A DNA stretch of 64,000 nucleotides, from contig OZ036015.1 of the NCBI GenBank assembly GCA_964035015.1, positions 7,094,766-7,158,765 on the forward strand, in the 5' to 3' direction. Shown piece after piece: positions 8,932-30,000 of this stretch. A program made the translations under genes and the position numbers. The notes beneath the pieces are model-generated. The model did not search any database and had not been told where the DNA came from. It worked only from the letters and a program-made list of their open reading frames with translations. The stretch comes from Corallium rubrum. Taxonomy: Eukaryota; Cnidaria; Anthozoa; Scleralcyonacea; Coralliidae. Within the stretch, counting starts at the first letter, position 1. The number at the start of each line of letters is the position of its first letter.

Positions 8932-9054
8932 CTAGAAATGGATCTCCCAGTCCCGATTATCAAGATCCTCCAATTCCAGTTGTTTGGAAATGTCTAGTGC
9001 GGTTGGCCTGCTTTCACGATCTTCAATGAAGCAAGAAGCCACCACGTCATGTAA
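8932..9054 (-). CDS. Receptor terminal exon: pseudokinase C-lobe end and stop
   Basis: 123 bp from acceptor AATCTAG (phase 0) to TAG at 8932-8934. It encodes [19 protein letters not shown], the typical kinase alphaH segment (C-x-x-x-D-x-x-x-RP), followed by [20 protein letters not shown]. The RESRP motif closes the kinase fold. The stop is 20 residues after it, so the protein ends with the kinase domain. Confidence 0.85.
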   Translation of the reverse strand, partial: LHDVVASCFIEDRESRPTALDISKQLELEDLDNRDWEIHF

Positions 9055-12000
9055 CTAGATTTGAGAAAAAAACAACTATTTAGTTTCTACATATAGCCAT
9101 GTAGGCCTACACAAGCTTCAACCAGTATATAACTTAAAAGAATAGTAGTAATAAATCTCTAAATGCTCATACAAGAAATTAATGTATATAGATCACGAAA
9201 ATGAAATGGCCATCTTCTTGACAGACCTTAGATATTTTTAAGTAATCATTTTGGTCCAAAGATATTCTTTTAATAGAATGAATTAAGATATAGACATTCT
9301 ATTCTTCTTATCACTACACCTTGGGTTTTGTGTGTTAGGCCTGCGCTAAACGTCGCAGAATAGACGAATTTAATTCAGATGAATTTAATTCGAATTAACT
9401 TCGTCGTTAATGCGACGTAAATGCGACGTCGAGTTAAACGCAAATTTGAGTCTAATTTAATTGTTTTTACTTGGACTCGTGGAGCCTGAGAACGATTTTT
9501 TGAAAAGATGTCGCCGAATTGTCACAGACAGAACAGAAACATTTAATTCGACACGACGATAATTCATCGTAACTCGAACACGCATAATTATCGTCGCATT
9601 ATCCGTCTGATGATGACTCAGACGAATTTAATTGGCGAGACGAATTTAATTCGTGTATCGAATTTAATCGAGTTACACGTCGCAGTCTCGTCGAATAAAA
9701 TCCAAACAATTAAATTAGTCTGAATTAAATTCGTCTATTGTGCGATGTTTAGCGCAGGCCTGATATATCAATAACGACTTTGAGGGGTCCAAACATGAGA
9801 AAACATGATGAAAGCATGAGGTCGAAGGCTCAGTGGTTTTATTGTTTTCGAGTGTTTGGATACCCCTGATGAAACACGCTAAAAGAGTTGTTGATATGAT
9901 TTCAGGCCACGTTTACAGGGTACCGGACGAATTCGAGACCAGTCTCTAATTCGTCCTATTTCGCCGTGCAAACCGGAGGAACCGTACCAATCCGAGACCG
10001 GTTCCGAATTCGTTCGGTACCGTATAAATGTGGTCTGAATTGAAAAATGCAACTAAAATAAATCCTCATGAGATTCTATTGATGAGTGTGTGTAAAATTT
10101 ATTCATACAGAACATGTTATTTTTCATTGATAATTGAGATTTCAAGAATTAGATGAACAGCGGTTTTCATCTAATATCTTGGGCAGTATACAATTTTAGC
10201 GTGTTTTACTGGAGTATCCAACTTCAATCAGGTGATTGAGTCATAGTTCATAGAGGGAGATGGTTAGGAAACTTCATAAAATCCATTATTATAGGTTTTT
10301 GTGTACCTTGTGCACGGTCACGGTTGAAAATTCTATTTACTATTATTTCACCTTTGCGAACTAAGATAGCAGTGCAGAAGGGACTAGGCACTACGTGTTT
10401 GTTTTGATTGCTGTTTCGAGGTATTCCAGTACTTATTACAAATAATTACATATTTCGAGCCATGCTTCCATTAGAAAACGTTTGTGTTCAGTCGTTTGGC
10501 CATATCAAACGAGCTTTGAAACACTTTGTGCACGATCAAACCCTGTTCAACTTCCAAGTGGGTTCTTTGTACAATGTATTTGAAGTTTACGGGGTTTCCT
10601 AACCATCTCCCTCTATCAACTATGATTGAATGAACTATAGCAATTGGCTGACTATCTCATGTATTATTAATGAGTTTGAGATATGTAAACAAAACCACAA
10701 ACAATTCCGAACAAATATCTTGCGATTATCTTTAGCTAACTTCAGAAGTCGATATGAAATAACATTTTGAGTTATCATTGCTATATCCTTCATAGCGTGC
10801 CTAGCAGCCAGGGTTTGGGTTGGACAGCTAGAGTTGCTTACGGAAATCGAGTGTACCATGTGTAGTTGGCAACAACACCGTAAGCAAGTTGGCTATTTTC
10901 TGGGGTGTTTTTTTGTTTTCTTTTCCTATATAGCGGGACAAGGTCTTGATTGAAGACAATTGGGTCACGATCAGATAATATAGATGCAGAGTAACCACGC
11001 CGAACACGATACAAGTCAAAATAGAGACAGCCCAACTTGAATTTATGACAACCATGCATGGGCATATTTTGAGAATAATTAATTTACAATTACAATTAGA
11101 ACAATAGACCAGTGGCGTCGTGGGAGCTGCATGATCAGCAACAACAGCGCGAGGGTCTCAAGTCCAAAATTTTCCACAGGTGTATACTTTAAAGAGGTCG
11201 CAAGGCATATGTATGACCTAGGATTTTTTTTTCAGGACAAATATAAAATTGTAGGAAGGGCTGTAGCCCCCCTCTCCACCTCACCCGCGCTCACGACGCC
11301 ACTGCAATACACATTGCATTGTAAGGATAAATAGTTTTGATAAAGAAGGCCCAATGCAATCACTGCAGTTATAGCAACAAATTTAGGTGAATTGAGTTCG
11401 AGACAATTGAGGTCAATTTGTTGTTCTCTAAAGCGTACTCTTGTGTGGTTTTTCATTGTTAACAGAAGAGTCGTTTGTGCTAGCTCGGATATGAGAATTG
11501 AGTGTAAATAATATTCGAGATAATATAATTAGCAATTTTTTGGAGTTCCCAAACGAGACTTGAACAAACAACATTCTGATTGCCGGTAAGGCAACTGTTA
11601 CATTTTAACTACTGGGAAGTCTATTTTTCTACACAACTGCCACAGGTGAATCACATGTGGTCTACATGTGACTAACATGTGAAACGTACATTCCCACATT
11701 TGACCTTCATATACAGTATGTATAAGTTATTTTGAGGCCACCCGGGGATATGTGATTTATTCACCGAAGGCGAAAATAACGTACTTATTTTTCACATGGC
11801 GAGGTTGACAGGATTTCATAAGATAAGGAGTGGTGCGGGGGATATTAGATGGGAAGATTAGAGGAGAATATTATAGCGAGGAATGGTCGAGGGGCATATT
11901 ATAGCCTTAGAGGGGAATATTAATCTATTGTTTTGCCAGGGGCTATTGAATATGTATTCCCCTAAAAGAACAAAGGAAACCGAGGCATGTGAAAAATAAG

Positions 12001-27000: not shown

Positions 27001-30000
27001 ATCATATGAAATAATAGTGCGCCCGGGTTACATTGAGGTCGATAGATAGTCGTTAAATTTAATTCTTAAAGTCATTAATAATTCATGAGATAATTAGCCA
27101 ATCAGAGAAAAATATTTGGTCATGTGTATGAGTTTTGAAACATGGTAAAGGTCGCGCAAACTGAATTTATCTTTAAGAAACCAGATAATAAACGGCACAA
27201 ACAAAGAACCGTTTATTACCACATTTCTTAATTATAGATTCAACATGAAACAGCTGTCTAATCCAATATCATCAAGTTCTTCTACTATAATTGACGATTG
27301 AGAAGCTATATTTCATAAACTCGTGTATCGTGTTTTACCAGGGTTTGCAAAGACTCGAGAACAAAATAATAACAATCGGCCTATTACCTCGAAATTTTCT
27401 CTCATGTTTGTAAAACATTCGAAAACAATCAAAATTACTCGGCTTGCAGCCTCATGATTTTCATTATTCCTTCATGTTTACAAACACTCGAGAACAATGA
27501 AAATTACTGGGTTAACGGCATTGTGATTTTCATTGTCCTCTCGTGTTTATAACCCCTGGTAAAACAATCCCACTCGTTTATGAAATATTACTTATCAAAT
27601 CATTAATAATTCATAAGAAAAATTGAAAAGAAATGAATGTTTAATCAACATTTGTAAATACTGTTAAAACATTGATTAATAAAACAACAATGTTTTATCA
27701 TAGTTATAAGACGCTAGTGGCTCAAATTCAGCTTTTTCTGACTTAAAATAATCTTATGTAACCTTTTCTACGACTCTTAAACAAAGTATACACCTACAAT
27801 TTGATAAGTAAGATCGGCCGCTCATATTTTAATTACTACTTAACTACTTATCTCTATACAGCTAAATAAAAACGTTTGACTTAAACGAACATAGTTTTTA
27901 CCTTTAGGATTTCCCGGCTGAGTTGGCGCAGCAATCTTTGAAAACGGCCATAATGTAGCAATCTTGTTGCGTACCAGTGGAGTCGAGAATGTGTAGAGAA
28001 ATGGGTTGATCGAACTGTTTATTGGCAGCACAAATACAGCAATCCAGGCATAGACTTGCTTCTTCGGATCGTGAAAGTCTCCAGCTAAGGATAAGATGCT
28101 TATTATGAAGACAGGAAACCAGCAGAAAAAATCAGTAAGGATAATAAACATCATTCTTTTGGCGATTGTTGACTCTTTGTTCGTTCGTGTCGACCTCGTA
28201 GCTCTCGCTGACTTGACGACTGTTCGATACATGATGACGTAAGCCACAAGCATGTAAAAGAATGAGATACCGTTGAGAAAGATGAAAATAACAACAGAGT
28301 ATTCCCAACCAGCTAGTCTCTCTACTGACAGTTGAAGAGGAAGACAGACCCCAGTACGACCAAACATATTCACATTCTGCCCATAGTCGTAGAAGTAGTC
28401 ATTGTTTAGCAAAGGAGCAGCAGAAATAGCTAAGCCCAAAAGCCATACAAAGATCATAATAATGACTGCTTTTTTGATGGAAATGCGTTCAAAACGCATT
28501 GAAAAGACAATGCAAACAATGCGATCGAGTGTAATCATGCACAATGTCAAGACAGACACTTCACTAGATAGTATTGAAAGGACACCAGCAATGCTACAAA
28601 GAGTACTTCCTCGCCAAGAAACATCGTGTTTAAAGTAAACACCACGCCACACTGTATCTTTGTAAGCTATCATCAACATGTAAACTCCCATTAAGCAATC
28701 GGCCACCGCAAGATTGGTTAAAAGAAATGAGTTCACTGTGCCTGTATCCTTTCCAATTATCCTCCACAAGACTACACCCAAGTTTCCTACACAAGCCAGC
28801 GCCCCAAAAACCCAAATAAAGTACTTAAGAAATGTGTTTTTAAGCAATTCGTCGCAACTTGATAAGCCGCTGCCTTGAAGGGATGTACAAGAAACACCTG
28901 GAACTGCTTTCTCGGCGTAACAACACAAAGTGAAGTGGTCGACTTTCCTATACAATGCATTGAATAAAAAAAGAAATAGTATCAGGATAGCACATCAAAA
29001 ACGATCCGGATAATCCTATAGTTAAACCTATCGTATCTAGATTTAGACTTGTGAAAAGAAAGTTGGGCATTTATTCTTTAAAGGAAGACATTTCATCACC
29101 ACGACCGAAACTTCTGGTCGATATTTCTCTGTTAATGTGCAAGATTTCCTGACAGCGTCAAAGCCCCTATTTTTTTCGAACTTTTCCTAATCAGACGTTC
29201 TTTCTGATCAGACTTTCGTATCTTATTCCGGCTAACCCTAGACGTGACGATTTTTTCAACAACAGGAGAACCCTGCAAGTAAAAAAGGGGAAAAAACATG
29301 CGTTTCAAGGCCGTCTGAAATCTTGACCTCGTGTAATGTCTACAAAGCGAAATCACCACTTTACTTAACATTGTAGGCTACCAAAGCTCCATTAGCGGCG
29401 AAACAAAAGTACATCCCTAGATCAACTTATTCGAAGAGAGGAGGTACAAGTTGTCTATTTCGTGTTATGTTAATCCACTATACGCATTAACTTTTTCTGG
29501 TAGGCATCCGATTTTCAAGTATTATGTGTTTTGCTCTGGATAACGCCAGACGATTTTACTCGTCGCAGAAAAATCCTACCAACGGGAAAACTGTTAACCA
29601 TTAACTTATTAAATTGGAAAGATTGAGTTGTCCGAGGATGTATGTCGCCGAAGAAGTTGAATTTAACAACGAGATGAAAAGAAAACTCTTTATTTTTTTG
29701 CGGTCCGGTATCCATCTGATTCGCGCGCTCTGATTGGCTTAGCGAGCGGTCCGTATCACACGATACGGACCCCGATACGGACCGCTGCGGATTTCCAAAC
29801 AAAAACAAAAACGTTTTTTAATATTTCGTATACTCGACGCTTTTCACTACTTTAGACTACAATAGAATGCCAGTAAAAACAAAGTAAGATGGTTTATCCA
29901 AATGGTTTTGACAACTTCATGTGAAAACAGCGAATTTTAAAAGAAATGCTGGGAAAACTGTGACAAAAAAAAATTTACGAGCGACATTTCAAGTATTATT

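Follow-up and report, generated by a model that had tools for sequence, protein, structure and literature searches.

Gene Organization in the Window

The window analyzed here is a 64,000-nucleotide stretch of the genome of the octocoral Corallium rubrum (G000:C52:7094766-7158765), and its relatives were sought in the 474-Mb assembly to which it belongs. Its main feature is a gene on the reverse strand, gene W, in which exons resembling a leucine-rich repeat (LRR) G-protein-coupled receptor (GPCR) of the relaxin-receptor type are followed by exons resembling a protein kinase. Two relatives of gene W, referred to as copies A and B, lie on contig C37. Judged by exon structure and domain matches, it is very probable that gene W is a single gene encoding one chain, in the order CUB, LRRNT, LRRs, a seven-transmembrane (7TM) domain like that of the relaxin receptors (RXFP), and a pseudokinase.

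The 7TM exon, which ends at the donor GTAAAA in phase 1, and the 6 exons downstream of it form one open frame with AG/GT borders throughout that runs to a stop at 8932. The resulting chain is 654 residues long from the 7TM exon to the stop, with 306 residues following the 7TM exon. Without splicing, the frame of the 7TM exon reaches a stop at 27840. The splice from 27902 to 24817, by which the phase-1 donor would join the phase-1 acceptor of the next exon, is inferred from the gene structure. This junction and the six exons in frame through 306 residues had been proposed in an earlier, sequence-only reading of the window, and the coordinates hold. The same reading had placed the gene within 8932-28947, which is too narrow, as the gene extends upstream beyond 28947 with LRR exons to approximately 59.2 kb and then a CUB domain (82.9 bits) just past the end of the window, at L041:3994-4428.

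To control for chance, a profile made from copies A and B only, excluding the window copy, was compared with all window frames of at least 20 codons at E ≤ 1. The only matches were five of the six kinase-part exons, all on the reverse strand, with scores of 84.2, 66.5, 60.9, 16.0, and 12.0 bits; the remaining exon, 76 nucleotides (nt) long, was not picked up in these frames. The top score in each of 5 shuffled windows ranged from 3.7 to 6.8 bits. The five matches lie above this range, and the kinase-part exons are thus more than a chance resemblance.

The Receptor Half

The 7TM exon of gene W matches the Pfam family 7tm_1 with an E value of 1.8e-34. Among the best 60 of 311 matches to solved structures, the highest is relaxin receptor 1 (RXFP1; E 9.1e-59, 202.6 bits), which agrees with the relaxin-type body assigned by the sequence-only reading, with lower scores for LHCGR (135.4 bits), TSHR (123.3 bits), FSHR (110 bits), and LGR4 (about 55 bits). 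By match scores against solved chains, the 7TM domain therefore appears nearer to RXFP than to other leucine-rich repeat GPCRs (LGRs). It also carries NPxxY and a DR motif.

Upstream of its 7TM exon, gene W has an LRRNT-like exon and eight 72-nt LRR exons, seven of which were found by a phase-2 scan and one by reading, and the order of the LRR exons is common to copy A. The chain of seven LRR exons matches LRR_8 (E 5e-34). Joined to the 7TM exon and the tail, these seven exons remain open throughout, and LRR_8, 7tm_1, and PK_Tyr_Ser-Thr all match within this one chain. The LRRNT-like exon alone has no Pfam match, and no counterpart of the copy A LRR exon at C37:1181354-1181283 was found in gene W between 33110 and 37018. 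A CUB domain rather than an LDLa domain is seen in gene W and copy B. The LDLa-core pattern was absent from the reverse-strand frames of gene W, searched out to 69.9 kb, and from the stretches of copies A and B; the actual start of the gene may be located still further upstream.

The Kinase-Like Tail

The Pfam family PK_Tyr_Ser-Thr matches the tail in all three genes, with 38.0 bits in gene W (residues 136-200 of the 306), 32.1 bits in copy A, and 31.1 bits in copy B against a cut-off of 23.1. In a profile-profile comparison, the three copies aligned from the amino-terminal lobe (N-lobe) through alphaH to a set of six kinases encoded in this genome, with a probability of 97.8%. By sequence, the tail is thus a kinase fold, as had been claimed for the region after the 7TM domain. 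Retained features include the catalytic-loop Asn, present in all three copies, and in the profile alignment the alphaF Asp of DVWSFG, which appears as DVEAFG. The activation segment is short. The Asp of HRD is replaced by Ala and that of DFG by Leu in all three copies, the DFG position aligning with LGG. At the position of the beta3 Lys, the profile alignment places His in gene W, Asp in copy A, and Gln in copy B; three residues further on there is a Lys in gene W and copy A and an Asp in copy B, so that the position is equivocal. With both catalytic Asp residues lost in three of three copies, kinase activity is unlikely, and the tail is probably best called a pseudokinase. The sequence-only reading had described a receptor coupled directly to a kinase scaffold; the word scaffold fits, but an active kinase is not what these residues suggest.

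Searches against solved structures returned weak matches to many kinases and no single parent family. These include a JAK-type chain at residues 674-725 and 953-1015, which we take to be its two kinase-type domains, and as the matches fall in both, they indicate no special kinship. With the kinase parts of W, A, and B as queries and the best candidates scored, no close parent kinase was found in the genome beyond the three genes themselves.

Related Copies and Selection

The genome search scored only the best candidates, and the match counts are therefore lower bounds. At E ≤ 1e-10, the receptor query gave at least 12 matches, counting that of the window itself, and the closest other match among those listed is C37:1175408-1176427 on the reverse strand, at 68%. 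The kinase part of gene W gave at least 12 matches at E ≤ 1, six of them the window's own exons and six on C37, and all 12 listed fall within genes W, A, and B. At E ≤ 10, 9 of the 17 matches listed for the copy B kinase part and 12 of the 35 listed for that of copy A lie within the same three genes; the remaining matches of both queries all have E ≥ 0.28.

Copy A (C37:1176428-1164727, reverse strand) contains the 7TM exon, the linker exon, and four kinase exons in the order of gene W. Its short exon was recovered by a phase-constrained search (score 43 versus at most 10 in 20 shuffles), so that all seven exons are present with phases identical to those of gene W. Its linker exon exceeds that of gene W by 75 nt yet has the same phase. 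Copy B (C37, about 1.038-1.065 Mb, reverse strand) has a CUB domain, an LRRNT-like exon, and six LRR exons, followed by kinase exons that show the phases of gene W wherever their borders are visible; a counterpart of the short exon was recovered by the same kind of search. On this sequence evidence, we read the three genes as an LGR-pseudokinase receptor family with three members found in this octocoral genome.

Both halves of the gene are under purifying selection, unevenly so, and the kinase-like part is maintained. Between gene W and copy A, the ratio of nonsynonymous to synonymous substitution rates (dN/dS, NG86 method) is 0.21 for the 7TM exon (348 codons), 0.31 for the linker exon (51 codons, p 0.002), 0.21 for the short exon (23 codons, p 0.03), 0.30 for the hinge and catalytic-loop exon (65 codons), and 0.24 for the DFG-position and alphaF exon (55 codons). 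When the five kinase exons past the linker are pooled, dN/dS is 0.39 (239 codons, p 2e-8) at a dS near 0.9.

One Chain or Two

The intron that joins the 7TM exon to the linker exon is 3,084 nt long in gene W and 1,429 nt long in copy A. A comparison of the two introns found no conserved coding (best E 0.083 over 149 frames), though a very short exon could escape it; when the linker and N-lobe exons were compared in the same way, E values went down to 6e-17. The sequence-only reading had named an independent start exon for the kinase part in the intron at 24818-27901 as a finding that would overturn it, and the comparison with copy A revealed none. Past the 7TM exon, W and A have no ATG in common at aligned positions, so that a separate kinase protein would lack a conserved start. 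The phases match in W and A although the linker lengths differ, which favors one gene, and a complete seven-exon copy A together with a partly hidden copy B makes a fusion likelier than two neighboring genes.

Several observations weigh against a single gene with a maintained kinase-fold tail. The joining intron of gene W contains two AATAAA, where 3.8 are expected, and five ATTAAA. When ten related loci (L011-L020, of which L019 overlaps L016) were read by eye, L011, L013, L014 (with its near-copy L015), and L016 were also seen to end their 7TM exons at a phase-1 donor, and an in-frame stop follows shortly in L011, L013, L014, and L016. No kinase part was found in about 4.4, 9.6, and 9.4 kb behind L040, L042, and L043 (best score 3.3 bits) with a profile that gives 24-121 bits for the six window exons, which it contains; other relatives were covered only by 1.5-kb flanks, too short to tell. 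The 7TM exon of copy B is not visible, its expected site being occupied by a 5-kb run of N, and two long introns of gene W, of 6.6 and 7.8 kb, are rich in repeats. Within the tail, alphaG and the glycine-rich loop are not recognizable, and constraint is not significant for the last exon (dN/dS 0.47, 40 codons, p 0.06) or the N-lobe exon (0.79, 56 codons, p 0.35). Constraint is likewise absent from the final 16 codons ahead of the 7TM donor (dN 0.76, dS 0.78). Finally, a block duplication of two neighbors could also yield linked copies, and linkage alone is therefore no proof.

The donor deserves separate comment, as the sequence-only reading had called it strong. It is present as described, but relatives without a detected kinase have a phase-1 donor too, and so the donor alone is no evidence for fusion. 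A phase-1 donor after the 7TM domain is a feature of the family that may lead to other tails.

The alternative that survives best is that both ends are made, a short-tailed receptor stopping at 27840 and a form with the pseudokinase tail. An in-frame stop soon past the donor in both W and A and the poly(A)-like signals within the joining intron of W make a short-tailed isoform possible. Read on into the intron, however, the two frames give dissimilar tails, of 20 residues in W and 4 in A, and the intron of A has no poly(A)-like signal. We regard the production of both forms as unlikely, if far from negligible. Less probable again, and to our minds improbable, is that two adjacent same-strand genes, duplicated together, encode an LGR receptor and, separately, a pseudokinase of the cytoplasm. 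The 3.1-kb spacer of W could hold a promoter and contains the two AATAAA and five ATTAAA noted above, and the donor shared with relatives lacking a detected kinase suits this arrangement as well. Against it stand the agreement of phases in two copies despite the unequal linker exon, the lack of a shared start codon or conserved start exon, and the presence of LGR-type exons on the same strand ahead of every kinase copy found. The 1.43-kb spacer of A contains neither AATAAA nor ATTAAA, a weak argument, as only 1.6 AATAAA are expected there.

Two further readings concern the tail itself, and we give each of them very little chance. If the kinase-like exons were decaying relics, the missing catalytic residues and the N-lobe and last exons that show no significant constraint singly would be explained. 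Against this, W and A keep their frame open and their splice sites intact, and the pooled dN/dS stays low at such a dS; that the same residues replace the Asp of HRD and that of DFG in each of the three copies suggests a pseudokinase that has been maintained. Activity is known for some proteins placed among the pseudokinases, and the retained catalytic-loop Asn would suit an active kinase with unusual chemistry, a proposal opposed by the loss of both Asp residues in every copy and by the residues at and near the beta3 Lys position.

Comparison with Known Systems

Gene W resembles RXFP1, RXFP2, and other type-C LGRs in its 72-nt LRR exons, its hinge, and its rhodopsin-type 7TM domain nearest RXFP1, but differs in the probable addition of a kinase-fold domain after the 7TM domain and in having a CUB domain with no LDLa seen. 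Dead kinase folds used for allostery are familiar from signaling chains such as JAK, with its JH2 domain, and the receptor guanylyl cyclases, with their kinase-homology domain. Unlike in these modules, no active enzyme domain follows the coral pseudokinase.

LGRs with extra N-terminal CUB domains are mentioned for Nematostella and Trichoplax in the available text of a review from 2022 on the LGRs of cnidarians and placozoans, in whose main text, as available, the word kinase is absent (PMC9545775). The GPCR-TKL/K and GPCR-TK proteins of choanoflagellates and sponges, as described in the accessible portion of PMC12716839 (eLife 2025), have a 7TM domain followed by a C-terminal kinase-type domain, as gene W probably does; the coral protein differs in its RXFP-like 7TM domain with an LRR ectodomain and in its lost catalytic residues, a distinction drawn from descriptions. 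To the knowledge of the authors of that article, as stated in the same portion, none of the GPCR-kinase fusions has been functionally characterized. The GPCR-bigrams of oomycetes, amoebozoans, and others (GPCR-TKL, GPCR-PIPK; PMC5784254) pair a GPCR with a protein-kinase or lipid-kinase domain on the intracellular side, and their 7TM and kinase types are other than those of the coral. The available part of that article (mBio 2018) describes metazoan GPCR-bigrams as rare or nonexistent and metazoan GPCR extensions as lacking catalytic domains. Among the titles listed, in a search that left aside subscription papers and preprints, and in the available text of PMC12716839, PMC9545775, PMC5784254, and PMC5094078, no LGR-kinase chain was found. 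Within this literature, a GPCR-pseudokinase receptor class has not been reported for animals outside sponges.

GPCR-kinase fusions have been found in oomycetes, amoebozoans, choanoflagellates, and sponges. The coral case, if true, would carry the design into an animal with tissue-level organization and would tie it to a recognizable hormone-receptor body. It would also make the role of a kinase fold attached to a 7TM domain accessible to tractable tests and suggest that catalysis is unnecessary for the design.

A Possible Mechanism

We put at even chances the broader proposal that octocorals evolved relaxin-receptor-type GPCRs with a built-in pseudokinase tail, signaling via a tethered scaffold beside or instead of a G protein. 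In such a receptor, the ectodomain would bind a protein or peptide ligand, either relaxin/insulin-like or another, the latter being conceivable given the CUB domain and the lack of a visible LDLa. The 7TM domain, with its NPxxY and DR motifs, would couple to a G protein. The tail would lie in the cytoplasm after the seventh transmembrane helix, unable to phosphorylate, and could act as an allosteric and docking module that always stays attached to the receptor, recruiting or regulating an active kinase, a G-protein regulator, or an arrestin-like partner upon a change in receptor conformation. Taken jointly, ligand, G-protein coupling, and tethered module make up a tentative scheme, in which we have less confidence than in the broader proposal.

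Exon Coordinates and Other Features

Table 1. Exons assigned to gene W, from the 5' end of the gene, in window positions (position 1 is the first nucleotide of the window).
Feature	Positions	Strand	Basis
Putative LRRNT-like Cys-rich exon	59088..59202	-	55% identity over 42 residues to copy B frame; AG/GT borders read
LRR exon, 72 nt	58868..58939	-	Matches copies A and B; borders read; missed by phase-2 scan
LRR exon, 72 nt, phase 2	57426..57497	-	Comparison with copies and phase-2 scan
LRR exon, 72 nt, phase 2	56539..56610	-	Comparison with copies and phase-2 scan
LRR exon, 72 nt, phase 2	42035..42106	-	Comparison with copies and phase-2 scan
LRR exon, 72 nt, phase 2	37323..37394	-	Comparison with copies and phase-2 scan
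LRR exon, 72 nt, phase 2	37019..37090	-	Comparison with copies and phase-2 scan
LRR exon, 72 nt, phase 2	33038..33109	-	Comparison with copies and phase-2 scan
LRR exon, 72 nt, phase 2, final one ahead of 7TM exon	30868..30939	-	Comparison with copies and scan; frame open into 7TM exon
Hinge and rhodopsin-type 7TM exon, phase-1 donor	27902..28947	-	7tm_1 and RXFP1 matches; dN/dS against copy A
Linker exon, phase-1 acceptor	24654..24817	-	In-frame model; homologous exon in copy A
Kinase-like N-lobe exon	24266..24434	-	In-frame model; genome search; A+B profile
Short N-lobe insert exon, 76 nt	24083..24158	-	In-frame model; counterparts in A and B by phase-constrained search
Hinge, alphaE, and catalytic-loop exon (HNALLPQN in place of HRDLxxxN)	23652..23844	-	PK_Tyr_Ser-Thr; genome search; profiles
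DFG-position (LGG) and alphaF exon	16883..17077	-	In-frame model; genome search; profiles
AlphaH/C-terminal exon with stop	8932..9054	-	In-frame model; genome search; profiles

Other features lie within the introns of gene W. A run of open frames on the forward strand at 44371-48728, inside a receptor intron, looks like an undescribed mobile element or repeat. Five of its frames gave no Pfam match, and the frame at 47205-47975 has 69 genome matches at E ≤ 1e-5, one of them 99% identical over the whole length. A long simple repeat (22655-23515) with open frames in several phases sits in the intron that separates the catalytic-loop exon from the DFG-position exon, and the last intron of the receptor gene holds a retroelement RNase H-like fragment on the reverse strand (12544-12798; PF17917, E 4e-16).

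Outside the gene, two predicted tRNA-His genes (gtg) lie in opposite orientation at 7090-7161 (reverse) and 7309-7380 (forward), with approximately 150 bases between them. Elsewhere in the assembly, contig G000:C129 matches COX1, whose protein looks octocoral, and MutS, whose mitochondrial form is an octocoral marker; both point to an octocoral genome, in keeping with the cnidarian one supposed in the sequence-only reading. The matches lie in several places (six for MutS) and in both orientations; this contig is probably a concatenated or misassembled mitochondrial genome.

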